This document shows, one piece after another, positions 26,397 to 61,400 of a stretch of DNA of 64,000 bases; the first letter of the stretch is position 1; each line of letters begins with the position of its first letter. The notes under the pieces are model-generated. The model did no database searches and was not told the origin of the DNA. It saw nothing but the letters and a program-made list of their open reading frames with translations. The position numbers were made by a program, and so were the translations under genes. The stretch is from Symbiodinium natans (lineage: Eukaryota > Sar > Dinophyceae > Suessiales > Symbiodiniaceae), in NCBI GenBank assembly GCA_905221605.1, contig CAJNDS010000488.1, forward strand, positions 62,001-126,000, given 5' to 3'.

Positions 26397-26397
<1 letters not shown>
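24002..26397. other. No gene assigned; (TA)n at 24130-24149
   Basis: Contains a 20-bp TA run. A 192-codon minus-strand open frame at 24269-24847 lacks coding character and was rejected. No other feature was recognised. Confidence 0.3.

Positions 26398-26459
<62 letters not shown>
26398..26459 (+). repeat. (GTT)n array at the 5' edge of the LINE
   Basis: About 20 uninterrupted GTT units, preceded by degenerate GTT/GTC/GCC units from about 26340. Same strand orientation as the larger array at 32792-33317 on the other side of the element. Confidence 0.95.
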
Positions 26460-26475
26460 AAGATTCTGGCCCAAG

Positions 26476-28560
26476 ATGAGGATTTTATTTCTCGTAGCCG
26501 TAGCGAGCTTTCTTGGGTGCCTGGGTCCCAAGTCCCAGGGTCCAGCCATGGATCAGAATCGAGGGTTTCGGGAAGTAGCGCCCCCCGATGAAGCTGAGCA
26601 GCATGCGCAGCGAAGTCAGCTAACCATGAACAAAACCGGCAAGCGAAGCTACCAAAGAGCTTGTAAAGTTGCCCTGGCGAAGGGAGCAGCACTTTACAAA
26701 GGCCGTCTTCTGACAGCTCAGGCTCTAGGAGCTCATGAAGGACAATTCGCGTCTCCTGCGAAAGCGGAGAGGCGTTCTTTTCAACCGAACAGACAGATCC
26801 ATCACAAATTTGACATGGAAGTCCTTACTTGGAACGCAGGCTCAATTACAAGTCGAGTTTGGAACGAGATTCTGGCCCTTTTGGCAACAACAGAGTACAA
26901 GAACATCAAAATCGTTTTCCTGCAGGAATCGCATTGGCAGCAGGACCAGGTCTACAGCTCAGGCCCGTGGTCAGTCCTAACCTGTGGCTCAACAAGCAGA
27001 CACAAGGCTGGCCTGGTTGTCTTGGTGCATAGCTCACTGGCTCCTCTTTCAGAAATTCGCAGCACTTCCATTGTTCCAGGGCATTTGCAGCACGTCATGA
27101 TCCCGTGGCAGAGATCCAGAATACATCTCCTGAACCTGTACCAGCACGTCTGGGATTCAAAGCTCTCGAAGACGGAAAACAGAGGCAGGAGAAAGGACGT
27201 GATGACACAGCTCGAAAATCGAATACAGAGAGTCCCACAACGTGACTTCTTGATTGTGGCTGGGGATTTCAATGCGCATGCGGTGACTGAACGTCCTCAT
27301 ATCGGACCAAGTGTGCCTCATCGAGTACGGTTTGCAAATGCGGATGTGAAGACACTGCCCTCGCTCTGCAAATCCTGTGGACTAACTGCGCTGAACACAT
27401 GGGCTTCTGGCCATCGCAGTACGTATGCTAACAGTGATGGCACATATTCCTCTCAGATCGATTTTTTGCTGGTCAGACTGCACGATGCTCGGAGGAGATC
27501 CAAGGAGGCCTACTCGGATAAGAACTTTCCTGTGGCTGCCTACAGAGATGGATCAAAACACTTTCCAGTGCGAGCCACTCTGTTCATTCCTCCTTACAGT
27601 CCTACACCCAGCAAGCCACGGCCGTTTGATGCCACAGCCCTGGATGCGAGCTTTCGGCGGAAAGATGACAACTGGCAGGCATACTCACATCGTCTGACGG
27701 AAGCAGTGGTGAGGACAATGCAAGTGAGACCGTCTTGGCAAGAACTGGATGAAGTGATGGTTAGTGTATCAGCTGAGCACTATCCTCCTCCACGCAAGTC
27801 TCAGCCAGTAGCAGGTCCAATTCATCAGGAATATTGGAAGAAAGTGCGGCAAATCCAGGCGCACAAGAGGGCTGGAACCGAGCATAATTCAGAATGCCAG
27901 AAGCTTGTGGAGGACATCAAGGAGGAGGCGCGGACTTTCAAAAAACAGCAAAAACAAAGAAAGCTAGAGAAGCAAGAGCAGTTGCTTCTACAAGCCCAGG
28001 AAGATAAAAGGCAACAATCCCACAAACTGGCTCATACTCTCAGGAAACTTGCTCCGTGGCGCCCAGTGCAGAGAGTCAACCTAAGGGATCAAGCAGGTGA
28101 GCCGCTTGATACGGAGGCCTCACTAAAAACTATGCGCGAATACTCGAGTCAAATCTTCTCCAAAAGTCCTCCTTTGCACTCAGTAGCTGCTGTGCCCAGA
28201 GCAGCGATCACCGCCTTGCAGGTATCCTCACAAATCAAGACAGTGCCAGTGGGGAAAGCAGTCCCCAGCACCTCAGCCCCAGTATCAGCTTGGAAGAGTC
28301 TAGGTCCTGAAGCCCACGAACACATAGCAGGTCTAATCAACTCTGAGGTGTCCCAATCAGAAATTTCCCCTTATCTAAAGGACCCTCGAATTGCATGGAT
28401 CCCCAAGCCGGGCAAGCCAGCCACCGCCATGCAAAACCTGAGGCCCATAGGAGTCATCAGCGTGCCAGGCAAAGTGCTAGCAGGCGCAGTGAAGACTCGC
28501 ATTGCACCAGCACTGCAGGTGAGCTCACAGCTTCAGCCTCAATTTGCGTACATCGGCAGA
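26476..28560 (+). CDS. LINE polyprotein, 5' part: AP endonuclease and start of reverse transcriptase
   Basis: Start chosen at ATG 26476, the first inside the element; the frame is open upstream only through the (GTT)n array. A hydrophobic start (MRILFLVAVASFLGCLG) and a basic linker precede the endonuclease (26815-27582). This nicks target DNA to prime reverse transcription. Endonuclease/exonuclease/phosphatase motifs in order: WNAGSI (Asn), FLQESHW (Glu), GDFNAH (Asp, Asn), IDFLLV (Asp) and SKHFPV (His). In the last motif the usual SDH has Lys for Asp. A Lys/Glu/Gln-rich coiled segment (about 27830-28030) follows. The RT then begins with AWIPKPGKPATAMQNLRPIG, the usual K-P-G...RPI entry. The frame runs to a stop at 28710, but RT similarity leaves it at the G6 run 28561-28566 and continues in the next feature. 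Confidence 0.85.
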
Positions 28561-28562
28561 GG

Positions 28563-31295
28563 GGGGTGCGGGACGCTATCGCGAAAGCATGTCAGCACCT
28601 TGATTTCGCGCAGCAGCTCCGTCAAGAGCATCGCAGGGACCTGCACAAGTCCCAACGCGGAGCCAGGCAGGCTCAGCTGTCAGGGGCACTTACTATTTCG
28701 GTTGATCTGAGCAAAGCTTTTGATTCTGTTAATAGACATGAGCTGCTAGCTGCCTTGGATCGCCTGGGAACAGACCCTGTTACGAAAGAACTGGTAGTTC
28801 AACTACACAGTGAGACCTCCTACAACATGGGCACAAGTGGACTAGAGATTCAAGTTCCCACTTCTTCAGGAATCAAACAAGGTTGCAAGCTAGCCCCGGC
28901 ATTGTGGTCTGCGCTGACACTTCTAGTCATGAGCAGAATGGAGCAGAAATGGGGCCCAGATAGCAAGCAAGCTAGGGACATCCTAACGGTCTTTGCAGAC
29001 GATTTCCTGCTCCAGGAAACCTTCTCGAGCTTTCCTGAACTTCAGAAAGTCCTGCTCAGAATAGAGGCTCTCTTTCAGTCTCTTGAGGACGTGGGGCTGG
29101 AAGTCAATCCAACGAAGTCCAAAGCCTTGCTAATGGTTCAGGGCACTCAGCAGTCCATCTTTCGCAAGAAGCACACGATGCGCAAAGAGAAGCAGTTGCA
29201 CATCGTCCTTCCCTCAGGACATAAGATTCCGATTCATCACAAACTAACATATCTAGGGGTGCAGCTCAGCTATGGATCCTACAAAGACCAGACTGTTGAC
29301 TATAGGATCGCCCAAGCTCAAGGCAAGTTTGAGCTACTTCGACACATCCTGTGCTCCACTAAGGCCTTGGAGGCTTCAAAGAAGTTGGAGATCTGGAGGG
29401 TCTATGTGGAATCCTCACTCTTGCATGGGCTTGTGGCCACTGGCATCACCTCATCAGGTCTTCAGAAGCTTCAGAGTAAATACTCGAGGATGCTAAGATC
29501 CATCTTTAAGCAACATCAGCACTACAGCCATATTGACACGAAGACTCTGTTCGAGCAATATAAGGTTCAGACTCCTCAAGCAGTTTTGATCAGCCAGATG
29601 AAAAACTATCAAGACGCACTAGATGCCTGTCAGAAGTACAACCCGGATCAGAACATACAGTGGTATCTGGGACTTAGAGGTAGGATTGTTGCGCTGCAAC
29701 AGGAGCTTCAGAGCATGCATTTGGACCTGACCGAGGCAGACCAGGAGGTACCGTGCTCTCTGTGCGATCGGAAATTTTCCAGCGCTAAGGGTCTTCAGCA
29801 ACATACTCTGGTGAAGCATGGAGGACAGCGTGCGAATCAGCTAGGCCCAAAATTTCAGGTCACTGTGCATAGCTGCAAAGGACTTCCGCAATGTGCGGCA
29901 TGCAACAGGCAGTTGCGCACAATGCATCAACTTCGCAGACATGTGGAGTCAGGCATTTGCCCTCAGCTGCACGAGCTGAAAGAACGAGCCAAATCCTGTA
30001 CAAGCTCAGAAAGCATAGCTATGATCTATCAGTCTAGCGTGCAGGAACAACTTAAGAAGGATCCTGATCTTCTACTAAAAAAGAGACATGTCACTCAGCA
30101 TCTATTAACGAACTGCAGTCTCTGTGGGCAATACATTGTTGGCCACAAAGGAGTGAAACAGCACATTCAGAAAGCTCATCCCGCTTTCTGGGCACAATCC
30201 TCGGCATCCATTCTTGCCAACATGCGAACACATAAGCGCCTCCTGCACAAAAAAGAAGAATGTAGGTATTGTCGCATTGTGGTAGATGCTCCAGTACGCC
30301 ATGCAGAGCAATGTGTGGTTCTGCTTCAGACATACGCCATGAGTGCAGCTTGTGCCAAGCCTATGGAACTGCCAGATCTCTTCAGTGCAGATCCTCCAAT
30401 TAGCCAGGTGAGAGGCAGGGAGGCTTCCTCCCAGGAGGCTTCCTCCAGCAGCCGAGCTTCTTTGCTGACATACACTGCACGCGTCTCGGGTCGTTCAACC
30501 ACTGCACCTCCCACAGCTTCCATGCAAGACGCTGCCTGGCGTCTAGCTTATCATAATCCGCATCAACTGTGCTATGCACACACGGTCGTTCATATCCTTA
30601 TCTCTCTCTTGTCAGACGGACTGTTCCCAGATCCTTCTTTAAATTCCATCCTAACGGAAATAGGTTCCCTGAATGGCAGATCCTCTCATGCGGATGTTCG
30701 GAGGTTGCGACATCTTCGTCCGCTGCTAGCAGGATGGCGATTACGACCCAGGCAGGAGGATGCATCTCAATTTCTGTTGCACATCTCTCAGCGTATTCCA
30801 GATCTTTCATCAGATAAATGGGAGGCGCGAGTTCATATCTCAGCACCGGAGGAACGCATAAGTGTTGAGGAAAAAGGTGGCTTGATTCTGTATCTACCCG
30901 AGCCGCCGGATGGACTCTCGACTCTTCAGCAATCAGTAACACAATGGACGAACAGGGGTAGTGTGTTTGCCTTGCTTCCAGAAACAAGACTCATTTGCTT
31001 ACAAATTCAAAGATTTGATCAGCAAATCAAAACTTCCCGCCCACAAGCGCTGGACACAGTCCTTGAGATGCCAATGTTTCTAGATAATGGAACATCAACG
31101 GAAGCAGTGTCTTTTCGTCTCTATGCATTCATTATCCATATCGGCGAAGACTGGAGCTCTGGACATTACCGAGCGGGGTTTTGGAGAGATGGAGTTGCGT
31201 ACCTAGCTGATGATAGTGATCCGCCAAGATGCACCATGCTCCTCTCGGATCAAATATGCCGAGGATCGTACTTGGCCTTCTATGTAAGAGATTAG
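28563..31295 (+). CDS. LINE polyprotein, 3' part: RT catalytic core, zinc fingers, USP-like protease
   Basis: About 910 residues, one base back in frame from the previous part. RT motifs: SVDLSKAFDSV (motif A), SGIKQGCKLAP (B), VFADDFL (catalytic FADD, C) and TYLGVQL (D/E). Four zinc fingers at 29754-30314: C-x2-C-x12-H-x4-H, C-x2-C-x12-H-x5-C, C-x2-C-x12-H-x4-H and C-x2-C-x9-H-x3-C. They probably bind the element RNA or target DNA. The last 250 residues (30537-31295) follow the peptidase C19 (ubiquitin-specific protease) plan: Cys box NPHQLCYAHT, QEDASQFL, RLICLQIQRFD, then SGHYRAGF with the catalytic His, YLADDSDP with the Asp, and the final SYLAFYV. The domain is shorter than typical USPs and lacks an obvious zinc-binding finger insertion. 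Substrate (ubiquitin or a ubiquitin-like protein) is unknown. Confidence 0.8.
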   Translation, partial: GVRDAIAKACQHLDFAQQLRQEHRRDLHKSQRGARQAQLSGALTISVDLSKAFDSVNRHELLAALDRLGTDPVTKELVVQLHSETSYNMGTSGLEIQVPTSSGIKQGCKLAPALWSALTLLVMSRMEQKWGPDSKQARDILTVFADDFLLQETFSSFPELQKVLLRIEALFQSLEDVGLEVNPTKSKALLMVQGTQQSIFRKKHTMRKEKQLHIVLPSGHKIPIHHKLTYLGVQLSYGSYKDQTVDYRIAQAQGKFELLRHILCSTKALEASKKLEIWRVYVESSLLHGLVATGITSSGLQKLQSKYSRMLRSIFKQHQHYSHIDTKTLFEQYKVQTPQAVLISQMKNYQDALDACQKYNPDQNIQWYLGLRGRIVALQQELQSMHLDLTEADQEVPCSLCDRKFSSAKGLQQHTLVKHGGQRANQLGPKFQVTVHSCKGLPQCAACNRQLRTMHQLRRHVESGICPQLHELKERAKSCTSSESIAMIYQSSVQEQLKKDPDLLLKKRHVTQHLLTNCSLCGQYIVGHKGVKQHIQKAHPAFWAQSSASILANMRTHKRLLHKKEECRYCRIVVDAPVRHAEQCVVLLQTYAMSAACAKPMELPDLFSADPPISQVRGREASSQEASSSSRASLLTYTARVSGRSTTAPPTASMQDAAWRLAYHNPHQLCYAHTVVHILISLLSDGLFPDPSLNSILTEIGSLNGRSSHADVRRLRHLRPLLAGWRLRPRQEDASQFLLHISQRIPDLSSDKWEARVHISAPEERISVEEKGGLILYLPEPPDGLSTLQQSVTQWTNRGSVFALLPETRLICLQIQRFDQQIKTSRPQALDTVLEMPMFLDNGTSTEAVSFRLYAFIIHIGEDWSSGHYRAGFWRDGVAYLADDSDPPRCTMLLSDQICRGSYLAFYVRD

Positions 31296-32302
31296 ATTCA
31301 GCCAGGCAGCCATGAGGCAGGCCTTTGCCCAATTGTCAGCACCCGCCAAGTCCAAGCACGCATGCGGAGGTTTCCTCCGGAGGCATCCTCCGCAGCAGTG
31401 TTCTTTCTTAAAGAAGACCTATCTGCCTGCTGTTGCTTAAGGCAACTCGGCATGAATGCTGCCCTGCGCGCAATAAAGCCATGATCTCGTGCTAAAAAGT
31501 ACAGTCTCTTGCATGAACCTTCACATGCGGAGGTTTCCTCCGGAGGCTTCCTCCCCGGTAGTGTTTCTTACAGTAGACCGATCTGCCTGCTGTAGCGTAA
31601 GGCCAAGCTTACCCATTTTTGTCCCTGAACCTGAAGCATCTGTAAGAGCCCTGTGCGCACTTCCTTTGACCCCAGCAAAATTCCCCCCCGAACATGTGAG
31701 GCCTCCTCAAGGACGGTGGGTTCAACTTAGAGTCACTTTTTCGGATGCAACCTGCCTTGTCGCAGCGCTGGCCCCGAGAGCCGTGCAAGGTGTCCCAGGT
31801 CAGGTGCTTCCCTCTTCGCAAAGTACTCGTATCTATGTGAGACCTCCTCCAGCATGGTGGGTTAAGTTCGGTTAGTTGGGGTCACATTTTCTCGACCAGG
31901 TATGAAATTTTGCCCTGTCGCAGCGCTGGCCCCAGGAGCCGCGCAAGGCGTCCCAGGTCAGGCTTCGCAAACTCAGCTTCCCTGCATCCAATTTGGGCAT
32001 CCTACTTGGAACGTGCAAGGCCGCCTTGGTGCGCTCTGCCTACGGCCCTCTGCCAGTTGTTTAGCGTTACCTGTGTGAGACGTCACTAGACAGGAACGCT
32101 GAGTGTCGGCCTCACCAGAGGTACGGCTCGCTAAACAGCTGGTGCGTGGGTGCTGGACGCAGTGACTCACAGTAGGGTGTCGGGGTAGCCGCGCTTATTT
32201 TTCACTCTTTTGCAGTGCTGAGTACTTGATATCGGAGGCTGCCTCCGTGCCAACTTCAATTTCTTCATTGATTCATTGCATCAGATTAGGAGGTTTCCTC
32301 CT
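30418..32302 (+). repeat. Seven dispersed GGAGG-nnn-CCTCC palindromes in the LINE 3' region
   Basis: Copies begin near 30418, 30434, 31366, 31379, 31529, 31542 and 32234, with a variant at 32288. Two pairs sit inside a diverged ~80-bp repeat (31361-31444 and 31524-31605) that also shares ATCTGCCTGCTGT. Each can form a 5-6-bp stem with a 3-base loop in RNA. The first two lie in the coding region, between the fingers and the protease. Confidence 0.75.
31697..31980 (+). repeat. Two diverged ~140-bp direct repeats in the LINE 3' region
   Basis: Both copies (starting about 31697 and 31838) contain GTGAG-CCTCCTC, a GGTGGGTT segment, GTCGCAGCGCTGGCCCC and GCAAGG-GTCCCAGGTCAGG followed by TTCGCAAA. 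They make the 3' untranslated region modular. Confidence 0.7.
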
Positions 32303-32414
32303 GAATATCCTTAAGTACTCTGCCAAAGCAGATTCAGTATAGCAGGTAGTGAGACCTGGCAATCTGGAGGAAGCGATCCTCTCGAAGTCCAAAAGGCCGG
32401 ACTGTGAAATAAAA

Positions 32415-32453
32415 AAGGCGGGTGAGACCTTCTATATCACACTTGCCCGCCTT
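32415..32453 (+). other. 8-bp stem hairpin near the LINE 3' end
   Basis: AAGGCGGG (32415-32422) and CCCGCCTT (32446-32453) form a perfect 8-bp stem with a 23-base loop. A role in RT template recognition is possible but only inferred. Confidence 0.5.
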
Positions 32454-32791
32454 AATCACACCAAACTCAGCTAGCGCACAGCTATAGCCTGCAACACAAC
32501 ATCGGGGCCAGCCGGCACTGCAGCAGTCGCGGGTGCAGGTGAGCCAGTAGGAAGCGGTCGTAGGGTGCCCAGCCAGCACAGCGCTATCGCAGCCCCGAGG
32601 GGCGGATGCATTCCACATACTCGAACATAGCTGTGCACAACAATCCTTTCAGCAGCCCTGAGGGGCGTGAAGTACGAACTAGCAAAGACTGCTGGAGCTC
32701 CCAAGGCGGATACAGAGTAGCCGACGTGCCGAGGATCCAAAGTGATCAGAGGTCCACATGCTGATTCTGGCAGTGAGTGCAATGCAAAAAT

Positions 32792-33317
<526 letters not shown>

Positions 33318-48789: not shown

Positions 48790-48989
48790 TCACCAGCTGC
48801 GATCTCGATGGTCGTAGCGCCAAGGTCCACGGGAGTGCTCCGTAGTGCGACTCCCTGAGCTCCACCAGGATCCTTGATCCTGCCACTGGCGATCACGCCA
48901 GGAACTTGAGGAATGCCAGTCGCCCTGCGACCAAGAGTTGTCGCTCCACGACCAGCCACGATTCGTGTCACGATCGGCCTCCCCAAAAC
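48790..48989 (-). other. Possible Trp/Ser-rich C-terminal tail in the next frame
   Basis: Just after a C7 run (minus strand; 48990-48996), where the long frame soon stops at 48968, another frame reads RFGEADRDTNRGWSWSDNSW and continues rich in Trp, Ser, Gln, Arg and Asp to a stop at 48790. It looks like a genuine low-complexity tail. A one-base change in the C run would attach about 66 residues to the polyprotein. Confidence 0.35.
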
Positions 48990-51900
48990 GGGGGGGCATT
49001 TTGCGATGTCCTTCTTGCATCCGCCCGCGCCTGAGCGGCCCGGGACGCTTCTGCCGATTCCTTCATCCTTCGGCACGTCTCCTTTGCCCCACCATAATTC
49101 TCAGAGAGGATCTCGGCCAAAAAGACTGCCAGATGCTCTTCCTCATCGAAGTCCGGGATGCCAATGATGCCCTCCGTAAAGGTGAGGATGTGGGAAACCG
49201 CACGGGTGACGCGGATGGTCCGGGCGAATTCCTTCACGCCCATGAAGTTGCCGAGCCAAGCGTAGCCCATAGGTTCGAGGTTGGGGTCGTCAATGAGGCC
49301 GGCCAGGACGAGATCGTCGGCATTCTTGTCGAAGAACACCATGCGAGCCAGTCCCTCATGATTGACCTTTTTGTTCTCCCAGGCTTTGTTGGAGCCGTAG
49401 CCCAACTCACGTTGTTCGCGGGAACGACCTTGATTGGGAAGATAAGCGCATGCCACGCAGTCCTGAATAGTGAGCCGCCTTCTCGTCCAGCCGCCCTTGA
49501 TAGCGTGGATCGCGTAGGTGTCGTCCTGGTCGAACTTGTCTACCATCGACGTGTAGCCGTGCTTCATGAAGCCTTTGAGATTCTGGCGTGCTAACATGAT
49601 AGCTCGGCCATCTACGCTCTGCTGTCCCCTCAAATCATGCGTTCCAGCGGCCTGGCGAATCTTCGCGGCATCCAACTCCCAAAGGCCCTTCCCAAACTGC
49701 TCCGCCAGGGCGTCCAAGACATGGGAGCGCTCACGCGCCATCCACATTCTGAAGGCGCTCTGGGTGGCCCCACGGGTGACGTAGTAGCCACAGTGGAAGC
49801 ACTTGTGCTGACCTTCGAGACGGAGCTTGCCACAACTGACGCACTGAACCTGCGTGATTCCCCTGTTCCATCCAGGACGCGGCGCCTGGGTTGCCGGTGC
49901 CGTAGAGCGGGTAGCCATTCCTTCATCAGGGACCACTTGCAACTGACCTTCAGTCAAACGGTTCCTTCCTGAAGGTGACACCTCGATGACATCGGCGTCA
50001 GTGTTGAGGCGAACGCGTAGATGTGGAAGTTCAGGAACGGTGCTCTCGACCTCCTCAAGGATGGGAACATCGAACTCCTCCTTGACCAACGGGGCTTCTT
50101 CATGCTCGACATCAGGCTCCTCTTGTGCTTCTTGGAGAGGTCCCACGGCTTCAACAACCATGCTTCCGGAAGATTCGGCCTCCTCTACCTGAGGGGCATT
50201 CTCTTCCTCCTCCCGTCCTTCGGACCCATCCGTGGCGGACCACAAAATTTCATCGGTCCTTGTGTCACGAATATAAAGGACCGTGGACCCGGAGATAGCC
50301 TCTCGGCAGAGGACGCCGTCTGATCGGGAGTAAAACAGTCCGGCGCCCTGACTGAGGGCCTCCATGGTGTTGATGACGATCTCGACGGGACGATCGCTCC
50401 TCACGCCAGGGACGTTTTCTCCCGGCCCTACCTCCCGGTCGGCAAAATACACAAAGGCATTCGCGGTGTGGTGCCCGGGGATAAAGCAGGAGTCCAAGAT
50501 GGCAAAGGCTCGATCCTTGTAGGTGCGGTGGTAGAGCCTGCGTGGAATCTTCTCCAGGGGCAAAACCGGCCGACCTTCCCAGGTGGCAGAATGCACATCC
50601 ATTTCTGCTTCTGGGATCATGCTGAACCAGGCCTCAGCAAGGATCGAGTCGGGCACCCCTTTCATAGCATCCTTGGAGATGCCTTGGTTCGCCCTAATAA
50701 GGGTAGGGTACCCTCCTAGGCCGTAGTACTCGGCGAGGGGGTGGTTGCGGTCGATTCGCAGCTGGAACCTGCTGCGATTGTCGTTCTTGACGACAGTGAG
50801 GAGCATCCCGAGGCCATAATCCTTGTTCGTCTTCTTGTTCCAGGCCTCGAGAATCCTCCTCGTAGAGCACCACAATCCATCGCCCTGCAGGCCCGGGACG
50901 ATCTTGCCACGAACAATGCCGGACAAGGCAGTCTTGTGATGCTGGGGAATGTTGACATACTTGAAGTTCGGCATCTCGTCCTGAAGGATGTCAACCCACT
51001 CGGCCTCACCTTCCGGTGGGCATAAATGGATTGCGTCCCAATCGAGGCCCAGCATGTCGACGAGGCACCAATCGTCATCGGTTGTGTAGTAGCCGGACTT
51101 GATGGGCTCGTCGTAGTCAGCCTCGTGTGGGCCCTTCTTTGCCCGTTTGGGGGCACTGGACTCAGGGTCGGTCCGCTGACGACTGTAGACCTCCCCCCTG
51201 GCCAAAAGCTTCTCCTTAGTCTCCCGCGCCGTTGACGACGATGACGGAACAACGACGGCCTCCCCTGGACGGGGGGCATTTTCCTCGCTCTTCTTGATCA
51301 TCTCGTCGTAGTCCTCGCGGGTAACATATTCCCCATCTCCCAGGTGAACGTGGTCCTTGAAGTCCCGGTGGACAAAGTGGTTCGGCGCGGTGTCGGGGAA
51401 CTGCTCCTGGGGTCCTTGGAAGTAGATGTCGTCCCACGGGTCAGCCTCGACAAGCGGCTGATATGTGGGCGCTACTCTTCCTTTACGGAAGTGATTCAGG
51501 AGCTTCTCCTCCACCTGCACGTCCACAGCGAACTTGACGTTAGGCTTTGAGACGTGGCCGTAGTTTTGCAGGATCAGGTCGATGTCGGCTTCCTTGAAGA
51601 AGGAGCATTGGTGACGAAGGACCATAATCCTGGCGGTAAAACCCAACCACCTCAACAGCTGCAAACGATAGGCGCTGTCCTCCTGGAAGTGAAAGTGATC
51701 GAACTTGCGGATCTGGCTTGCAGGCGTATTGAAATGCTTGACGGCCAGCCCAAGTTGGGCGGCATAGTCGAGCAAATCCGCCATGATGGTACCCCAGTCG
51801 CGCGGGAGGCAGTAGCTGGCAGCGTCGGTCGCAGACGTGAGCAGCACAGTACCCACTGACGCCCGTGACTGTAGATCCGCCAACTTGCCTATTTCCCGGA

Positions 51901-54900
51901 GAACCTTTGGTCCAATGAACTCCCAGCTCCCCTTTGCCATGTGCGGGTAACCACGAAGCCACTCCGTCTTGCTCTTGAAGCCTGGGTCCAGAAACAGACC
52001 TCTTTCGCCGACGAACTCGTTCCCGTTCCAGATCATCATGAGGTCAATGCTCACCTGACCACTGGCGCCAGTTTCACGCTCCAGTTGGGTGACTTTTCCC
52101 ACGGCGAGCTCTACGAGCCGCGTGAGATTCGCACCCCATGTAGGAATGTACTCAACGCCAAGATGATGTGGGAAGGCATTGCCGCGGTTGGCCTTGATGT
52201 CTGCCAGCAGATCTGTCTTCCAATTTCCTTCAGTGAGGAACGTAGTTGTAGAGTCTGCGACGATGACAAGGTAGCGCAAACGGCCTCGAGTAGACTCGGG
52301 CTGGAGCATGGCCAAACCTTGATCGGTGAGCTTTCCGATTTTGGCCACCAAACCAGCCTCCCTGACGTCACTGAGGGCATATTCGCATGCCAGTGGCCGC
52401 GGCAAATACTTGTAAAAGTTATTCACGCTGGCTTCATCCTCCTGGAAAGGCGCCATGGTGCGGTATTCGGAAGACAATGAAGTCTCCCATAACCGGCGAT
52501 CCCACCACTGGCGCAGGACCTCCGTCGGAGCAACGATTCCAGCGTTGGTGGCTTCCATGTCCGGCGCGCAGAACTCTGCCGCGAGAATGCAGCAGGCAGC
52601 TAATGCGTTAGTTTGTTCAGCTTTGCGAGTGCAAACGTGTTTGTGGTCACACGAAAATTGTTGTTGTGCACAAGCTGCATAGTTAGAACGCCTATCGCAA
52701 AAGCTTTTCCAATCAATGTGGATGCAATCAGTCATGGCATGTGAATAATTCTCACTGTCCTTAAGGTCCTGGCCTCTAGACTCGCCATGAACATGACTGC
52801 GATCACACTTGTGCGCTGCCAGCCGCTGCAATGGAATCGACGACGCAATGGTCCAAGCTTTCCTTAGTGGTAATCCTTGGTAATTCGTAATCCCCAACAT
52901 GCAACCATCGCAACGGTAGAACTCAAGTCCAAAATCATTAACCATATGCTGAACATGGTCCCACTTCCAATAGTCGCAATCCTTAGGGAGTTCGAAGGCA
53001 ACCTGTGGTTTGTACTCTTTGAGCTTCCTAATGAATTTTCGGAACTGCTTGAGGAGTCTGCAAAACAGTTCCTGATGCTGTTCCCACTTTGGGCTGTCAG
53101 GCGTCATGCGATTCCACGGACAACCACCAGTACACGGAAGCGACGCATAAACTAAAATTGGCTTAGATGCTCCCCCCTCGTCGCAGAGGGTACTAATTTT
53201 CTGAACAACTGAAGTCAATGTAGAGTCTTTCAAGACATCATCCTCACTGGTGACTCGCAACACATAACATCCTTGACTTGCGCTACGATCCTGCCCTAGT
53301 TTGCTGTTGGGGGAGCAACAAAACTCGACTATGATTCGTTTGAACCCCAACGGCCTCGAGTATTCTCGGGCAGAAGCAGCGCTGGCCGCACGTGGGGGCA
53401 GCCTGAATCCAAGCGTCTTCAAAGAATTGAGCTCTTGATCTTGCAGTGCGTCTTGGGATCGGGAGGTGTACGCAACAATGGAGAAACGTGTTCCAGTGAA
53501 AGGTAACACACAGTGTAATTTTCGCGGATCAAAAATGATGGCTTTGTTCAGGGTGGACACAGCACGACCCCTAAGGCGCTTACCATTTGGCCCGACCCTA
53601 ACAATAGCATTTTCAGATGGAACAAGGGGGTCCGCAAACCACAGTTCACCATCCTTGAAATCCCCGACACTGAGGGCAAAGCTCATGCTATCCTTAGCAT
53701 TCCCATGGTCCTTGTGCACAGAGGCACTAGTACAGCTATTAAGCAGCACCGAGTTCCATGTGAAGTCCTTAGGAGCATGGGCTTGCACAACTCCATTTAG
53801 GAAGCGGGCAATCTGAGGCCACCGACGTGTTGCCTTAGTCACCCCTTGCATTCCTCCGTAAGACCACTGCCCAAAGATATGGTAGTAGCTGCGATTGTCA
53901 AGCTTAATCATCTTTCGCTTGGTTTTGTTGGGGTACATGATCTGGGCTACACGCAACAAAGCCTTAGTACTGAAGTCACGGTCCTTGGTAAGCTCAGCTG
54001 CGACTGCGCAAGGATCGCCCGACGGCTTCACCACAGGGTGAGCATGAACGACAGGCTTGTTGATGAGATGAGCATCGGACTCGTGTGCCTTAGATTGCCG
54101 TCCCCCCTGAAGAGGGGCATCGACGTGCGCGATGAGCCTTAGAGCATGTTCCCATTTACCTCGGTCAGCGAAAGGTTTGGTAAAGATATCAGCTACTTGC
54201 TCTTTGGTGTCAACATTAATCATTTCGAAGAAGTTACGCTCGAACTGTTGTTTGATCCAAGCAAACGAAATGCGTTGAGTCCGATCGGTGTGACGTAGTT
54301 TTTCGCTGTCACCTTTGAGGAGAATAGTGATGGTAGCTTGGTTGTCCTCAAGGAGTTGAACAGCAAACTTGGGGCTAAGGTGGACCTTGAGACCGTTTAA
54401 ATCGGAAACGCTTTGTCCATCCGCCCTACACTCACCATAACGGATCTCATCAAGTTCAGGATCAATTCGTGCGATGATGTCGTTTTCCCTTTGGTTAGGT
54501 TTGGTTTTCGGCCTAGCTTGGTAGCTGGCGGTCCTACTCGCAACCTCACGCCACAGGAAAATCCAAAGACTGAGGCTGGGCAGACCCTGGGCACGAATAC
54601 CTTGGTTGGCAGCCACAACCTCGCTCTCCGTACTTGAAGTAGTGATGCTGGTCTGTTTCTTGGAAAAAGCATTTAGGGGAAAGTAAGTATTGGGGCCAAC
54701 CAAGTAAAGGGCACAGCCTGAAGTGGATTTACTGTCGTGGCTACCAGCGTGGTCAGCATCGCAGAACATCCACAACTTACAATCCTGAATGCGATCCCCT
54801 ATGAATCCCCTCATCCGAACTTCAAGAGAAGAGTTTATGTAACTGATCAACCTGTGCAAAGCAACGTCACAGTCGCGAGACCACTTGGTGACTCTGGATG

Positions 54901-56005
54901 CCAGTGCCTGAGTGGCGCGTAACAAGTCCCACCTGGCCATTCTCGCAGCGAACAAAACCTTCATGAGTACACGGCTAGCAATAGGTTGCAGCTTACCACT
55001 AGGTTCATTGTTCTCCAGAACTTTTGCTACCCGGTTCTCATGAAAAGGAGTCGCTACGTGCTTCAGGGATTTCTTGTCGACCTTGGCCAACTCACAGTAC
55101 CTATCAACACAGGACACCAAGAAATCTCGCATGTCGTAGTACACAACGTTCACGGGCACAGTCATGGAAGGGGTTTTTCCCTGACTGATTGATTCAGTGC
55201 TCTTGAACTTACTCTGTCGTGCTTCTCGTTTAGCTTCGGCTTTGGACCGCTTGGGTTTATTGTGCTTAGCTGCGAGAGCATGAGAAAAGTCCTCGTCACT
55301 GACCTCAGTGATGGGGAAATATGTTCTCCCAGTCCACCAACCTGATTGGTCCGCGGGGCCCCCCTGATTCAAGTCATCATGGATAGGGTCCCTACCATCA
55401 TCAAACACCGTGATTCGTTGACGGCTTATGTGGGGGAATTTCGACACGTCGTCCTGCGTAGGCACATAAAGTTTCCTACGAGGATATATGTGATGCCTAA
55501 CGACTGCAGCTAACTCAGCGTCGACCTCCCAGAAGTCCTCTTTGCGGTTCGGCCGGACTTGGTAGTCGGCAGCTGGGCTAGCGTGCTTCTTGTCGAAGAC
55601 GTAAGCAAATGGGTGGTCCTCCCGTGAAAGCTGGACCTGATTTTGCTCAACGTGATGACACCCGAAGTACCGCCCCAAGACCTCGGCTGGTTCCATGTCA
55701 ATCACCTTAGCTATCAACTCCCAACCTTTGTTGATTTTGTCTTGGGGGCCGGCCATCTTGAAGTCATCAACGTACACAACAAGCAACAAATCTAGTTCAG
55801 CATGGTAGAAAACAGAATGCCAAATGTCGGGTAGAACTGCAGTAAAACCAACACTCTCTAACTGTTCTGTACAGTACCTCTCCCAGATACCACCTGAGTC
55901 AGGGTGGCCGTACAAAGCGAGCCTGAGTGGGCAAACAGGATCTTCATACCCAGACCATTCTTTAGGCCATCTGTTTCGAGGGAGACGAACCCATGTTTCA
56001 ATGCC
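48968..56005 (-). CDS. Copia pol C-part: RT core, RNase H and cargo domains
   Basis: One frame of about 2,345 codons; residues below are numbered from the ATG at 55915. The frame is open upstream to 56005 and includes the RT strand TWVRLPRNRWPKEW. RT YVDD is at 48-51. RNase H (about 375-595) has CDADHAG, STESE, LEDNQA and VADIFTKPF. Then follow: a 2OG-Fe(II) dioxygenase-like domain (675-815; H734-x-D736, H801, R810), a C5-methyltransferase-like domain (858-1030; PC at 927-928), an SGNH-like hydrolase domain (1210-1430; S1222, G1261, N1299, D1406-x-x-H1409), an acidic/charged linker, a Tpt1/KptA-like domain (1660-1830), another acidic linker and a zinc ribbon (C2025, C2028, C2039, C2042). The last 250 residues are unrecognised. 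It would be made as part of a Gag-Pol polyprotein and cut by the element protease. No stop interrupts the cargo, which argues for recent selection or very recent insertion. Confidence 0.85.
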   Translation of the reverse strand, partial: GIETWVRLPRNRWPKEWSGYEDPVCPLRLALYGHPDSGGIWERYCTEQLESVGFTAVLPDIWHSVFYHAELDLLLVVYVDDFKMAGPQDKINKGWELIAKVIDMEPAEVLGRYFGCHHVEQNQVQLSREDHPFAYVFDKKHASPAADYQVRPNRKEDFWEVDAELAAVVRHHIYPRRKLYVPTQDDVSKFPHISRQRITVFDDGRDPIHDDLNQGGPADQSGWWTGRTYFPITEVSDEDFSHALAAKHNKPKRSKAEAKREARQSKFKSTESISQGKTPSMTVPVNVVYYDMRDFLVSCVDRYCELAKVDKKSLKHVATPFHENRVAKVLENNEPSGKLQPIASRVLMKVLFAARMARWDLLRATQALASRVTKWSRDCDVALHRLISYINSSLEVRMRGFIGDRIQDCKLWMFCDADHAGSHDSKSTSGCALYLVGPNTYFPLNAFSKKQTSITTSSTESEVVAANQGIRAQGLPSLSLWIFLWREVASRTASYQARPKTKPNQRENDIIARIDPELDEIRYGECRADGQSVSDLNGLKVHLSPKFAVQLLEDNQATITILLKGDSEKLRHTDRTQRISFAWIKQQFERNFFEMINVDTKEQVADIFTKPFADRGKWEHALRLIAHVDAPLQGGRQSKAHESDAHLINKPVVHAHPVVKPSGDPCAVAAELTKDRDFSTKALLRVAQIMYPNKTKRKMIKLDNRSYYHIFGQWSYGGMQGVTKATRRWPQIARFLNGVVQAHAPKDFTWNSVLLNSCTSASVHKDHGNAKDSMSFALSVGDFKDGELWFADPLVPSENAIVRVGPNGKRLRGRAVSTLNKAIIFDPRKLHCVLPFTGTRFSIVAYTSRSQDALQDQELNSLKTLGFRLPPRAASAASAREYSRPLGFKRIIVEFCCSPNSKLGQDRSASQGCYVLRVTSEDDVLKDSTLTSVVQKISTLCDEGGASKPILVYASLPCTGGCPWNRMTPDSPKWEQHQELFCRLLKQFRKFIRKLKEYKPQVAFELPKDCDYWKWDHVQHMVNDFGLEFYRCDGCMLGITNYQGLPLRKAWTIASSIPLQRLAAHKCDRSHVHGESRGQDLKDSENYSHAMTDCIHIDWKSFCDRRSNYAACAQQQFSCDHKHVCTRKAEQTNALAACCILAAEFCAPDMEATNAGIVAPTEVLRQWWDRRLWETSLSSEYRTMAPFQEDEASVNNFYKYLPRPLACEYALSDVREAGLVAKIGKLTDQGLAMLQPESTRGRLRYLVIVADSTTTFLTEGNWKTDLLADIKANRGNAFPHHLGVEYIPTWGANLTRLVELAVGKVTQLERETGASGQVSIDLMMIWNGNEFVGERGLFLDPGFKSKTEWLRGYPHMAKGSWEFIGPKVLREIGKLADLQSRASVGTVLLTSATDAASYCLPRDWGTIMADLLDYAAQLGLAVKHFNTPASQIRKFDHFHFQEDSAYRLQLLRWLGFTARIMVLRHQCSFFKEADIDLILQNYGHVSKPNVKFAVDVQVEEKLLNHFRKGRVAPTYQPLVEADPWDDIYFQGPQEQFPDTAPNHFVHRDFKDHVHLGDGEYVTREDYDEMIKKSEENAPRPGEAVVVPSSSSTARETKEKLLARGEVYSRQRTDPESSAPKRAKKGPHEADYDEPIKSGYYTTDDDWCLVDMLGLDWDAIHLCPPEGEAEWVDILQDEMPNFKYVNIPQHHKTALSGIVRGKIVPGLQGDGLWCSTRRILEAWNKKTNKDYGLGMLLTVVKNDNRSRFQLRIDRNHPLAEYYGLGGYPTLIRANQGISKDAMKGVPDSILAEAWFSMIPEAEMDVHSATWEGRPVLPLEKIPRRLYHRTYKDRAFAILDSCFIPGHHTANAFVYFADREVGPGENVPGVRSDRPVEIVINTMEALSQGAGLFYSRSDGVLCREAISGSTVLYIRDTRTDEILWSATDGSEGREEEENAPQVEEAESSGSMVVEAVGPLQEAQEEPDVEHEEAPLVKEEFDVPILEEVESTVPELPHLRVRLNTDADVIEVSPSGRNRLTEGQLQVVPDEGMATRSTAPATQAPRPGWNRGITQVQCVSCGKLRLEGQHKCFHCGYYVTRGATQSAFRMWMARERSHVLDALAEQFGKGLWELDAAKIRQAAGTHDLRGQQSVDGRAIMLARQNLKGFMKHGYTSMVDKFDQDDTYAIHAIKGGWTRRRLTIQDCVACAYLPNQGRSREQRELGYGSNKAWENKKVNHEGLARMVFFDKNADDLVLAGLIDDPNLEPMGYAWLGNFMGVKEFARTIRVTRAVSHILTFTEGIIGIPDFDEEEHLAVFLAEILSENYGGAKETCRRMKESAEASRAAQARADARRTSQNAPPFWGGRS
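49790..49843 (-). other. Zinc-ribbon motif in the Copia polyprotein
   Basis: CVSCGK and CFHCG give C-x2-C-x10-C-x2-C, a classic zinc ribbon. It probably binds nucleic acid or protein; the target is unknown. Confidence 0.7.
50426..50938 (-). other. Tpt1/KptA (RNA 2'-phosphotransferase)-like domain
   Basis: Residues about 1660-1830 of the C-part. A winged-helix-like part (ALSGIVRGK, then GDGLWCSTRRIL and LLTVVKNDNRSRFQLRIDR) is followed by IRANQGIS and, further on, LYHRTYKDRAFAILDSCFIP and FVYFAD. This order and spacing follow Tpt1/KptA, which moves a 2'-phosphate from RNA to NAD+. Known members have LRH, I-R-A-x-Q-G-H-S, H-G-T and R-x-H-V. Here the first His is Gly, the GHS His is Ile, and the last Arg-x-His is missing. 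It may bind RNA or NAD without the classic activity. Confidence 0.6.
51626..52288 (-). other. SGNH-hydrolase-like domain
   Basis: Residues about 1210-1430. VIVADSTTTF (Ser block), TWGANLTRLV (Gly block), MIWNGNE (Asn block) and KFDHFHF (Asp-x-x-His) occur in the order of SGNH/GDSL esterases. These blocks are short and the first lacks the usual Gly before Asp-Ser, so the call is moderate. Substrate unknown. Confidence 0.45.
52826..53344 (-). other. Cytosine-methyltransferase-like domain
   Basis: Residues about 858-1030. IIVEFCCSPNSKLGQ sits where a SAM-binding loop would be, followed by VYASLPCTGGCPWN (cf. the catalytic Pro-Cys of motif IV), VAFELPKDCDYW (cf. ENV, motif VI) and LGITNYQGLPLRKAWTIA (cf. 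motif VIII). The order matches C5-DNA methyltransferases, but the glycine loop and ENV are altered. It may be a distinct branch or not an active methylase. Confidence 0.45.
53471..53893 (-). other. 2OG-Fe(II) dioxygenase-like domain
   Basis: Residues about 675-815. The iron-binding facial triad is visible: HKD (H734, D736) and LHCVLPFTGTRFSI (H801), with Arg nine residues on (R810) as the 2-oxoglutarate ligand. Core strands MSFALSVGDFKDGELWF and RAVSTLNKAIIFDP lie between. The family hydroxylates proteins or nucleic acids; the substrate here is unknown. Confidence 0.65.
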
Positions 56006-58403
56006 TTAAAAGGGCTTGTGTGTATGCGGCGATGCCATCAGCCTGCTGTTTCACGTACCCGGGTTGGCTACCAAACACATCGATGATTTTCCCGGCCTCC
56101 ATGCTAGCGGGGCTTGATCCTAGTTCGGCGAAAATGGCGTGATCGTGGTTTTCGTCCTGGACATTATTGCCCTGGAAGACACTACGACCCTTCCATTTCT
56201 TCTGGGGGTGCCCGTCCGGGAGTTCATCCCCCTTGACCGAACAAATCTCAAAGATTTTCCCGAAATGGGCCTTGACATTCTTGTGTTTGGCTTCCGCGGC
56301 AACATCCCGGTACTCTCGAACCTTCTTTTCGAGCCAGCAAGACTTATCGGCAAGTTTCTTCCACTCTCGGTCCATGGCTTCTTTAGCAGCGGGAGTACTT
56401 TCGATCTCTTTAGGCCCGACAACCCTGGCAACAACAGCAAACATCTCACTCGCAACCTGACCAAGTTTGGCCCAATACAAGGACGCCATGCGGTCCCTAT
56501 GGGGCTCGGGGTCAGGCTCGGCGATGACAGGCATGGCCGGGGAGTCTCTAAGGGCCTTGCGAGCATCTTCCTCGGCTTCACGAGCCTTTTTGCGTTCGAA
56601 TCTTTCAATGTCAGCCTCCCGTTGTGCCTTGGAATACATGTGCCAAAATTCCGAAGGGGTATCAGGTGGCCTTTTGGAACCTTTCTTATCTCTAACCAAC
56701 CTCACCCCGTCCCAGTTATACCCTTTGGGGACTTTCTTCCCGTCAGGCATGGTTTTGGGGTCATGTCTTGGTAGAGTAGATGAGGCCTTAGGCGTGGATG
56801 TTGCTTCCTTAGAAGATCCAGGAGCATCCCTCCCCAGCCAGTCCTCCACAGCTCCGACATCTTCGGGAACATAGTCCTCGTTTTCCTGGGCCACTTGGTC
56901 CAAGTACTCGGACAAACGATCCTTCAAATCGGAGCCGTCCAAATCAGGCACACCGGGCGGAGGCAAAGGCTCGTCCGGCGAATCCCCAGGCGGGGCGCGT
57001 GTTCCGGCACCTTCTGTGTCTCCCCACGAGCAGTCCTGATCTGCGAGGGTCGGCTTACGGAGGCTCTCCTGCAGTGCGAGCTGTTCGGATCTCATTGGGA
57101 ATGTGAAATCCCCGGGCAACAGCTCCATTCGCTTCGACCTCAGGATGGGAAAGTTTCCTATTTCGAACGCAAAGTCACAACCCTTGACGGGGGTAACGAG
57201 GTATTCCTCCTTCCAAACGAAGCCAGGTTGAATGTGGTAACCAAGAAATATTCCCTCAACACCAGTCGGCGCAAACTTGGAGCTCGCAGGAATGTTCTGT
57301 TTGGGGTTGTTCCAGTACAACACACGTGCACCAAAAGGAATCATTATCCCTGAAAACGGTTCCCCATACCTGGCCTCCCAGGGAACAATCCCGTTGTCAA
57401 GCCTCTTAGTTGCATTAAGTGCCATCGCATGGTGTTGGGCGGCCAACGGCCAAAGCTTGTCGGGGAGACCCGCCTGAACAAGGTTGGAGCGGGTACCCTC
57501 CAAGATCGTCCGAATTTCTCTTTCGATTACCGACTTGTTGGTGTCCACATATTCGCGGGATGTAACATGTCGGACACCTAGGCTTTTGATAGCGGCATGA
57601 AGTTCAGGTGCGTTGTCTGAGTAGAAAACGCCGACTGCATCTTCTTGACCTAGGAAGTGAAGAAGGTCTTCAAAACACTGATCGCTTGACTTAGTCGGAG
57701 AGGGGTAGACGTAACGAAATTTGGTGAACACGTCCTTAACAACAAGTGCGACCCTTTCGTCCTGGAACCCATGATCACGAAGGTCACGAGTGATGATATG
57801 GTCAACCGTGATGTGATCCCCAAAGGCCTTTGACACAATGGTACTTGAGCCCCCCTTTTTGCGGGCTTGGGGAGCCAACATCTTTGCACGCTGACATACC
57901 TCGCAGAACGGATTCTTGGGCCTGTGCGAGAACAAGTGCTCAACAGATTTGGCTTCAGCTTTCAGATCGGCCTCTGCAAGACTGCGGGCGTTTCCTTCGT
58001 TGTCACTGTCAGGTTCAACATCGGGGTCTTCGAAGATAGTGAGGCTCAGGATTGGATTACCCTCCAGTCGGGCAACTTTGTTGTCAAGCTCCCTGACGTT
58101 CACTTTATCCTCAACCTTGACCCAAGAACCTTCCCTGAACAACCAAGTAGATCTGACTTCGCATCTTGGAAACCTTGGTGTAGCAGTACGAAACGTCTTT
58201 GGTTTGTGTCCGACAATCAAGTACTTAGCATTTGGGTGCGAAACCCAACCTGTTCTTTTGAGCTTCTCTTTGGGGATATCTATCGGCGGCACCTCATTGA
58301 TGGCTGCGGAGATCTCAGGATCGGGGTGCTCGACCACTGGGTCTCGTTCCTCTGCTGCTCCTGCGAAAGCCTCGGCCGGCCCTATTGGGCGGCAGTTTTC
58401 TGA
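55998..58403 (-). CDS. Copia pol N-part: integrase and start of RT
   Basis: About 802 codons, entered by a -1 shift at 58403-58409; an independent start could be the GTG at 58335-58337, but the frame is open upstream. Residues below count from 58337. Integrase HHCC zinc motif: H134, H138, C145, C148. Catalytic Asp179 (ITVDHI), Asp241 (YSDNAPEL) and Glu272 (VIEREIR), with 30 residues between the last two instead of the usual 35. A linker rich in Pro, Asp and Lys (about 420-600) precedes the RT entry (KLADKSCWLEKK, GRSVFQGNNVQDE, ADGIAAYTQALL). The frame stops at 55998 while RT similarity continues one base over, in the next feature. Confidence 0.85.
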   Translation of the reverse strand, partial: SENCRPIGPAEAFAGAAEERDPVVEHPDPEISAAINEVPPIDIPKEKLKRTGWVSHPNAKYLIVGHKPKTFRTATPRFPRCEVRSTWLFREGSWVKVEDKVNVRELDNKVARLEGNPILSLTIFEDPDVEPDSDNEGNARSLAEADLKAEAKSVEHLFSHRPKNPFCEVCQRAKMLAPQARKKGGSSTIVSKAFGDHITVDHIITRDLRDHGFQDERVALVVKDVFTKFRYVYPSPTKSSDQCFEDLLHFLGQEDAVGVFYSDNAPELHAAIKSLGVRHVTSREYVDTNKSVIEREIRTILEGTRSNLVQAGLPDKLWPLAAQHHAMALNATKRLDNGIVPWEARYGEPFSGIMIPFGARVLYWNNPKQNIPASSKFAPTGVEGIFLGYHIQPGFVWKEEYLVTPVKGCDFAFEIGNFPILRSKRMELLPGDFTFPMRSEQLALQESLRKPTLADQDCSWGDTEGAGTRAPPGDSPDEPLPPPGVPDLDGSDLKDRLSEYLDQVAQENEDYVPEDVGAVEDWLGRDAPGSSKEATSTPKASSTLPRHDPKTMPDGKKVPKGYNWDGVRLVRDKKGSKRPPDTPSEFWHMYSKAQREADIERFERKKAREAEEDARKALRDSPAMPVIAEPDPEPHRDRMASLYWAKLGQVASEMFAVVARVVGPKEIESTPAAKEAMDREWKKLADKSCWLEKKVREYRDVAAEAKHKNVKAHFGKIFEICSVKGDELPDGHPQKKWKGRSVFQGNNVQDENHDHAIFAELGSSPASMEAGKIIDVFGSQPGYVKQQADGIAAYTQALLRH

Positions 58404-58409
58404 AAACCC
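58375..58409 (-). promoter_or_regulatory. -1 ribosomal frameshift signal between gag-protease and pol
   Basis: The minus-strand heptamer G-GGT-TTT is in the gag frame (58403-58409). After a 9-base spacer comes a stem GCCGCCC / GGGCCGGC with one bulged C and loop AATA (58375-58393). The gag stop TAG lies within the stem-loop. Slipping back one base joins gag-protease to the integrase frame exactly. Confidence 0.65.
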
Positions 58410-61400
58410 TCGGACAAAACTGGTCGTCCGAGAGAACCTGAGGCTTCCTCCTTAGCGCTTGGAGCGGCCATTGCTCCTCCCCCTAGCACAGGGACCATAA
58501 CTCTCATCCTACACCTTAGTCTTTGACCATTGGGCGCAACAAAGTAAGGCGGCCTTTTGGGGTACCAGTGGAACTCATAACCGTCCTCCATGCACCTTCT
58601 GCCTACGGAGCAAACAGGAGGGGTGCTGTTGAGAACATAGAACTCTAGCTCTTTGCCAAACTCCGGGAAGTCGATCCTAACCGACTTGTCACCTTTGACG
58701 TTACCATTAGCAGTGATGAGATTCACTTGTCGTAATGCGTTGCCTACTGGCTCTTCGCCGAAGTACATAGCACGATCGGCTTCGCTGATAAGGTCCTCCT
58801 CGCTTCCTGTGTCAGCAAGGAATTCTAAGGGCGTGGCGATCCCTGGACAAGCGATCTCTGAGCTCTCAACAACGTGCTTGCACATCCCACACATGAGAGA
58901 ATCAGGCTCATCACACTCTAAGTGGCAATCGGTTTTCTCTCCCCCCTCATGCCGGGCAAGAAGCATCTTGAGTTCCCTTGCGTTCCTAATTGCAACCTGA
59001 AGGTCATTAGCGTCAGGCTTAGGGCAGTTTTCCGCATCAGCATAGCAAGTATTGTACCTGCGAACTTTGTAGGAATGTTTGTACCCCTTTCCCTCAAAGG
59101 GGATTTCCCTGACTTTGGGTTTGTCAGAAAACCTGACCTTCTTGTTTTGTTCTTTGATCTTGAAAATAGTCTTGCCGGTCCACGGCGTCCTATCGCCGGT
59201 TCCCCCTCTTCCCTCTTTCCAGTCCCAGTTCTCCTTTGCAGTGTACGGAGAAATGGGAAGCGTCTTGATCACTTTGGCCTTACCCTTCAACCTTTCAAGA
59301 GCAACAGGACATGACACTTCGGGCTTGTACATAGTACTTCTGTACTTCAAATGGTGCCTAACAGCTTCACCCCTTTTGAAGTCTACTTCCCAGTAGTCTT
59401 CGTCCCCATCTTGTGGTTCACTCTCCTCAGGACCAGCTGAGGCTGCAGCCGCAAGCGAGATGCAGCATGCGGCCTTCCTGTCCTTTTCCTTAGAGCGTCC
59501 ACGGCTTGATTTCCTGCGCGTTGGCGCGGGTGACGGGGACCTTGGTTTGTCTGGGCCCTTAGGGGCCGGGGCTGCGTTTTCACCACCTGAGGGAGTAGGG
59601 CTCGGTTCCCTATGCAAGAAACGACACTTATCTCCCCTAGTGCACTTTCCCTTCTTCCAAAACGTGCAGACCTGTTTCTTCTTCGGGGCAGTGCGAACAG
59701 GGGATTGCGAACGGGGTTTGTGCGAAAACTTGCACTTGTCACCCCTGGTGCACTTACCCTTTTGAAAGTCGTAGCAAACTGGCTTTGGGCTTTGTGATCG
59801 GCTAGGTGATCTAGATCTGGATGGGGTCCTAGAGCGAGACCTGGACTTTGAATTAGACTGGCTACCGGCAGAGCGGTCCCTTCCGCGGCCACTCCTCGAC
59901 GGAGGGCGTGTCGGCCTTCCGCCTTCAACAACAGGAGCACCAAACTTGTCCCCATGAGACTTGGCGATTCTATCCCTGTTCTTGCGCATCCTTTCACGGG
60001 TCAACAAATCCCGGATTGACTTCAACAAGAACGCATAGGAGTGTGAGGCAGAACCCTCTTTCGCCCTGTCGTAGATTTCCAAATCATACTTCATTCTTGA
60101 GGACTTTCGGATTTGCCGAAGAAGGATGTCACGCAGAACCATTTCTTCTGGGACATGACTCATGCCAGCAATGACTGATTCCCAATTGTGCAGAAATGTG
60201 GTTAGATCGTCACTATGCAGCGTAACCTTCAAAAGGTCTTCTACCGAATAGAGCGATCCTACCTCTTCATTTGTTTTGAAGTACTGGTCAAACATGAGCA
60301 AGACCTGGCGTCCTCGTACGGCACGTCCTTGAACCGCCTCGGTTTCCTTGAAAGTGAGTACCTGCCGAGATAACTCACCTTTGGCGACCTTAGTGAGAGC
60401 GGCTAGGATTTTGGTATCCAGCGTGAGAAACTTACCGGGTTCACGAAGCTTTTCATGATCAGCATTCTTAGAATACACCTCTAGAATCCAAGAGAAGGCT
60501 TCATCTGGTCTATCTGAAGCTGCCCTAACTGCCTCCCGTGTTGCGGTTTTCCATGCACGGTAGGTTTCGGGGTTAGGGAAATCCGGCAGGCGGATGGTTT
60601 CAGCTTCTTTATCCTTTGGTTTGTCATCTTCACCGCTTTTGTCTCCTTTAAGAAGCTTGGCGGCTTCAAGCAGCGCTTGCTGCGTCTGTGCGATTAAATC
60701 GGCTCCAGTAGCTGCCGGACCTCCCGGCGTGCCTGTTGGGGCCGCAAGACCAGGGGCTCCGGCGTTCAAACCACCACTAGAGGATCCTAGATTTGGGACG
60801 TTAGCTGATGCTGTTGGGGTCCCTGGGGCAGAAACCGGACCCTGTGGTCCCGTTGGAGTGGCAGTAGTTGCCACACCGCCAAAACTGAAGTTTGGAAACA
60901 ATGCCCTGATGTTCATCGGAATCACACTCGGATCTGAAAACTGAGGGGCACACGGAGCACTAAGCCCGGCGCTTGGCGCTGGAGCAACTGGGGCAGTGGC
61001 GCTGGGAAACTGAGCTTGCTGCGAGGGATTGATACCTAAATTCCTGTCCTGTTCGAGCTGGAGCGCGCGCTCCATTGATGACAATTCATCTTGGAGGGTC
61101 ATGTTTTGAATCCTCATTTGCTCTTCAGTTTCCAGGGCTATACTGCGGTACCTTTTCATTGCCTCATCATGCTCTCTCCCAAACCATTCCCCAATCTCGT
61201 TAATGCTTTCCCTCTTGTTTTGTTCAGCCTCTTCAACCAGAGTTGTCCTGAGACGAGTGATTTGCGAACCAACATCGGAAAAATGTTCTGACTGAAAATT
61301 GATTATCTGGTTTTGTTGCTGGAGTTCTGAAAAGAGACCTTGGGTCCTCGCGACAAAGCTATACCTTTGGCTAGCAATTTCAGACTCAAGTCTAGCAACG

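Follow-up and report, generated by a model that had tools for sequence, protein, structure and literature searches.

A 64,000-nucleotide stretch of the Symbiodinium natans genome on contig C488 (the window) contains a long interspersed nuclear element (LINE) whose long open reading frame (ORF) ends in what looks like a ubiquitin-specific protease (USP, peptidase C19). Is this domain a USP, is it a regular part of the element, and what would a retrotransposon use it for? The domain is almost certainly a USP, as judged by profile, predicted fold, catalytic residues and tree; its fusion to a LINE is real and recurs in many copies and several distant families of this one genome.

The domain comprises 255 residues at 30528..31292 (+) and is followed by the stop codon TAG at 31293..31295 (+). 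The UCH profile (PF00443) matches all nine LINE USPs (best E 2.7e-19); the window domain itself matches at E 6.9e-5 and 23.0 bits, 0.9 bits below the curated cut-off. UCH is the sole Pfam family at E <= 0.01 in the nine protease domains, with no OTU or Ulp1 profile among them; it is not listed for the full window frame P0001 in the Pfam scan. In the alignment of the nine domains N10, C15, H213 and D228/D229 are invariant; from the usual USP layout we take these to be the oxyanion Asn and the catalytic Cys, His and Asp. They are unchanged across LINEs that are 20-27% identical to the window domain. The predicted structure of the window domain is a USP fold, and its matches include Ubp8 of SAGA, USP1, USP12 and USP46 at 12-21% identity (the row list of one structural comparison is Foldseek's own matches). 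The first-pass annotation, which had proposed a USP-like domain at the C-terminus of a LINE, is thus borne out by the profile match, by the fold and the catalytic residues, and by the tree described below.

It had counted absence of the fusion from all related copies as a refutation; a search of the 759 Mb genome finds many copies with it. P0003, the segment from the zinc-finger end to the USP, has 122 dispersed matches, mainly at about 92-100%, 71-72% and 64-65% identity, with partial and lower ones too. The UCH profile has at least 149 genome matches, all above cut-off and host USP genes included; the stretches examined from this search are L035-L042, L043-L050 and L052. Eight of them (L044-L050 and L052) are further LINE families with a USP. 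The reverse transcriptase (RT) was aligned in L046, L047, L049, L050 and L052; in L045 and L048 pieces of an RT were recognised by eye, and the L044 stretch has zinc fingers and USP only. L036, L037, L039 and L041 are shorter exons, and the USP frames in L035, L038, L040, L042 and L043 have no RT seen by eye within the stretch examined.

Both domains are joined in a single frame in L052 (1776 residues; RVT_1 63.8 bits, UCH 58.5 bits) and in L050 (1473 residues; RVT_1 55.2 bits, UCH 53.1 bits), all above cut-off. The L052 frame has 26 genome matches, of which 19 span from residue <=138 to >=1753 and 18 of these are stop-free; the full-span matches form sets at about 100, 36-38 and 29-30% identity. 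The L050 frame has 44 matches, mostly partial. Open-frame lengths printed beside genome matches are not usable, as N runs are read as open (L032, L034). Across the UCH search, 24 of the 149 matches lie downstream of an RT-covering row, on the same strand and within 2.5 kb of the row end (49 such rows were taken of 70 L052 and L050 match rows); there is no case (0) on the other side or the opposite strand.

The window element is an APE-type LINE with endonuclease, RT and zinc fingers in one long ORF. Its body spans 26460..32790 (+, last base +/-2), from the 5' end AAGATTCTGG... to the 3' end ...GCAAAAATG, which enters a TGT tract. In order, it contains an APE-type endonuclease domain (Exo_endo_phos, 26824..27519, +; Pfam E 4.3e-7, P0002 residues 209-440); a frame with the N-terminal RT motifs (28393..28710, +); the RT itself (RVT_1, 28575..29267, +; Pfam E 5.4e-18), with FADD at 28992-29003; a Cys/His zinc-finger block (29754..30314, +) of four motifs at 29754-29819, 29892-29960, 30114-30179 and 30261-30314; and a variable Ser/Ala-rich linker (30426..30527, +) leading to the USP. 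A 3' untranslated region (31296..32790, +) follows the stop codon. The first zinc finger matches zf-C2H2_jaz above cut-off, the third is a weak Pfam match (E 0.016), and the second and fourth were assigned by eye. FADD is invariant across seven aligned RTs. The Exo_endo_phos match is above the Pfam cut-off in the window; in L052, where the 5' end is cut, it reaches only 16.8 bits, below cut-off. The window copy is frame-broken: one frame encodes the endonuclease with the first RT motifs and a second frame the remainder, the RT frame being lost near 28.55 kb by comparison with L031. L031, which like the window copy belongs to subfamily A, and one L033 copy, of the sister subfamily B, have the whole protein in a single frame; each unbroken protein has 1606 residues, counted from the Met common to both.

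Selection on the USP can be read from these copies. Over the 253 codons of the USP, in which A and B are 70% identical by residue, nonsynonymous divergence (dN) is 0.22-0.23 and synonymous divergence (dS) 1.2-1.9; the corresponding RT values are 0.12-0.13 and ~1.7 (a single method giving a value for dS). The linker (30 codons) is under far weaker constraint and is the least conserved part. A-B dS is near saturation, and some estimators gave no value. The dN/dS range for the USP is 0.12-0.19; among 27 distinct near copies, mean dN over mean dS is 0.18 (351 pairs). The N, C, H, D and D residues are intact in 30/30 copies and 29/30 are stop-free; these are the best 30 of 122, a choice that favours intact copies. 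In the L050 family, 15/18 and 14/16 USP substitutions fall at third codon positions. The USP is under purifying selection, with its catalytic residues kept since capture; because of this selection, USP activity probably matters to the element.

As to origin, the tree places ten LINE USPs on one side of a branch and five USPs of the same genome with three database USPs on the other (support 96/99). One capture of a cellular USP by a LINE ancestor is likely; it is not proven, because the branches are long and the outgroup of eight non-LINE USPs is small.

How is the USP used? We lean slightly towards an APE-type LINE that captured a cellular USP as its last domain and uses it in cis on its own complex. 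An mRNA with a complete 5' end would be translated as a fusion of endonuclease, RT, zinc fingers and USP. The zinc fingers and endonuclease would bring this protein to a (TTG)n tract, where the RT would copy the element RNA. The USP would act in cis, freeing the ribonucleoprotein of the element itself from ubiquitin, and would thereby shield it against removal by the proteasome while the lengthy integration step proceeds. A deubiquitinating role, whether on own or host proteins, would fit the selection data.

Several results tell against this interpretation. The window USP is short and diverged, and falls just under the profile cut-off as given above. Confidence in its structure model is moderate (pLDDT 71.8), and the other four models reach 58-64. 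The third-position bias in the L050 family is weaker against two distant relatives (78/146 and 151/390), one of them frame-broken. Identities of RT and USP correlate at r 0.92 with the A/B pair (110/5040 permutations as high); without B, r = -0.11 (441/720), and co-divergence shows for the A/B pair only. As the correlation vanishes when B is left out, a deeper common descent of the two domains is no more than a possibility. Lastly, no result here tells a protective role in cis apart from a role directed at host proteins.

Action in trans is the second most likely use, possible if rather doubtful: the USP would target proteins of the host, either where the element inserts or in silencing pathways, such as chromatin, repair or restriction factors. 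The structural matches named above include enzymes of this sort, since some of Ubp8, USP1, USP12 and USP46 act on chromatin or repair factors, and the fused zinc fingers and endonuclease would put the USP on DNA. However, matches at 12-21% identity show only a general likeness to USPs.

Polyprotein processing, in which the USP would cut the long ORF product, is improbable. A single long ORF ending in a cysteine protease would suit such a role, but USPs cleave after the ubiquitin C-terminus, and a Pfam scan of the window frames and of the L052 and L050 ORFs lists no domain of ubiquitin-like type. Self-processing is unlikely for this reason, and autoprocessing was rejected as the principal explanation; the poor conservation of the linker also speaks against it. 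It is still less credible that the USP is a dead passenger, carried without function since its capture. The broken frame of the window copy and the stops in some copies would agree with this, but it is largely refuted by catalytic residues that stay invariant at 20-27% identity and by the dN/dS of 0.12-0.19. A coincidental likeness, or a cysteine protease with another fold, can be dismissed: single-sequence searches, that of the PDB among them, give weak matches, but profile, predicted structure, tree and catalytic residues all agree, and the profile matches and predicted structure rule it out.

In L044-L050 and L052, an ORF of ~300 residues lies between the zinc fingers and the USP in a +1 frame overlap (for example L050:2662-3642 + and L052:1051-1929 -); the window family is without it. 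With respect to the embedded ORF, the USP is read in the -1 frame in 8/8 families, the L049 ORF being broken. A basic stretch of Gly and Lys recurs in the seven aligned embedded products, along with residues here and there that do not vary; that all begin with Met follows from the choice of each frame's first Met as the start. The unnamed Symbiodinium natans protein product P0017 matches the L050 embedded ORF at 97% identity over all 327 residues and has the same start Met. No Pfam family is found for the embedded ORF among the eight proteins scanned (best embedded-ORF E 0.05), and its structure model is poor (pLDDT 41.5).

The USP frame is stop-free across the entire embedded ORF in 7/7 families, where synonymous shuffles expect 4.1-9.8 stops. 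The share of stop-free shuffles (20,000) is 0 in L044 and L046, 0.00055 in L045, 0.0066 in L047, 0.0051 in L048, 0.00005 in L050 and 0.00065 in L052. L049 stands outside this test: its embedded ORF is split over two frames, and only from position 2683 onwards does the frame of its USP stay open. The shuffle null is imperfect, because the third frame, used as a control, is also stop-poor in 2/7 families (L045, 5 v 10.3, share 0.006; L050, 9 v 13.6, share 0.022). Against four L050 relatives at growing distance, 14/29, 15/31, 129/201 and 188/475 substitutions in the overlap fall at third positions of the embedded ORF. The embedded protein is the sequence-conserved one, with the fusion frame seemingly kept open yet free in sequence.

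Translation restart at a conserved USP Met, as a way to reach the USP, is not supported: a Met lies within 75 bases before the oxyanion codon in 3/8 families (L044, L050 and L052, and not L045, L046, L047, L048 or L049). On balance, though by no means firmly, we regard these elements as an old and broad dinoflagellate LINE group in which the USP is standard and most families also have the overprinted protein of ~300 residues; one RNA would encode the fusion and the embedded protein, which together would counter ubiquitin-dependent host control. We know of no overlapping-gene arrangement of this sort described for LINEs.

Microsatellites flank the window element. A (TGT)21 tract at 26397..26459 (+), with its boundary set by comparison with L031 and L033, lies directly 5' and is the probable target tract; a (TGT)n tail or target tract of ~176 units follows at 32791..33317 (+). 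The 3' end enters TTG-type repeats in 11/11 distinct copies with the exact 3' end string, the repeat being seen for a few bases only in L009 and L013. At L033:2593-2625 the 3' end of one copy meets the 5' end of the next with about four TTG units between; this tandem junction shows the same two element ends as the window copy. No long terminal repeat (LTR) lies between the tandem copies, LTRs not having been searched for as such. Insertion would appear to take place in (TTG)n tracts, tails of earlier copies among them, and so to yield head-to-tail arrays.

At the 5' end, the 13 bases directly before the first ATG (26476) read ATTCTGGCCCAAG (26463..26475, +), two changes from ATTTTGGCTCAAG, the 3'-terminal part of the spliced leader of dinoflagellates; the leader sequence used for comparison is that in the available text of PMC8045281. 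Three leader-like 13-mer matches are found in the window against 2.75 expected by chance; consequently, the weight of this 13-mer lies in its position alone. The element mRNA may start at a spliced-leader site.

Modules have also moved between LINEs. A chimeric copy (L032:5636-6625, also P0004) has a subfamily A body and a subfamily B USP, with the switch in the linker. Over the first 109 ORF residues, A and B (L031, L033) have a dS of 0.13-0.17, against 1.2-2.6 elsewhere where estimated; this suggests that the 5' part was recently exchanged between the two subfamilies.

The available text of PMC8045281 describes the LINEs of Symbiodinium as highly divergent and likely remnants of an ancient expansion. 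In contrast, recent activity of the USP-LINE group is argued, on identity alone, because it has near-identical open copies. Database proteins P0004 and P0006 match loci of the Symbiodinium natans genome exactly, and P0007 and P0017 share 60-residue ends with loci of the same genome. A USP-LINE in other species is not shown: 9/13 database proteins have no exact-word match in the loci examined, a mismatch that does not place these nine in another species (P0012, P0014 and P0016 were outside the check).

Multi-copy USP genes are also present at L043 (C1823), C1057 and C2320 (two places), and at L042 (C1423, two places), with open frames of ~705 and ~630 residues across the domain; the L043 and L042 stretches are without RT by eye. 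Elsewhere in the window, a 2345-residue open frame (48971-56005, -) has a Tpt1/KptA RNA 2'-phosphotransferase match (E 1.3e-8), and a 1150-residue open frame (58385-61834, -) has CCCH zinc-finger matches. For the adjoining 817-residue frame at 56001-58451 (-), Pfam gives no match at E <= 0.001.

Several kinds of mobile element contain OTU- or Ulp1-type proteases, on whose role there is no agreement; Dualen and other LINEs have a deubiquitinase-type cysteine protease of the OTU fold, not a USP. The first-pass annotation knew of no LINE with a USP-type protease; likewise, none was found in open-licence PMC full texts, among the matches listed, or in the available parts of PMC11453091, PMC6338049 and PMC12014239. 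Mobile elements with OTU or Ulp1 proteases are already known, and a USP in a LINE was not found described in these texts. Since several distant relatives in the genome carry the USP, our comparisons suggest that ubiquitin removal matters for the persistence of these LINEs. USP-LINEs offer a testable route to the question of whether retrotransposons resist host control that depends on ubiquitin, and do so in hosts whose chromatin is unusual.

Cellular USPs (USP12, USP46, USP36, USP35, Ubp8) share the profile match, fold and catalytic residues with the LINE domain; these are host enzymes outside mobile elements, whereas the window USP is part of a LINE. The available text of PMC2836005 describes Ginger1, Helitron and Mutator elements with OTU or Ulp1 proteases, and mentions one Trichomonas transposase_11 protein with Peptidase C19. 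In the latter a C19 domain is tied to a mobile-element enzyme, as here, but the enzyme is a DNA transposase and not that of a retrotransposon. NeSL and Utopia-1_TSP, in the available text of PMC4640811, are also non-LTR elements with a ubiquitin/SUMO-type cysteine protease. Unlike the window LINE, they have a protease of Ulp1 fold at the N-terminus, a restriction-like endonuclease and other targets. A USP kept, with its catalytic residues, through several deep LINE families would be another and distinct instance of a retrotransposon joined by an enzyme of the deubiquitinase type. SymbioLINE-Dnmt, whose main text (PMC5890265) does not contain 'ubiquitin', 'protease' or 'peptidase', is, by the available description, likewise a dinoflagellate LINE, from Symbiodinium, with an acquired host enzyme under purifying selection; its enzyme, a cytosine methyltransferase, is encoded upstream of the RT in a different ORF, whereas here the USP is at the C-terminus.
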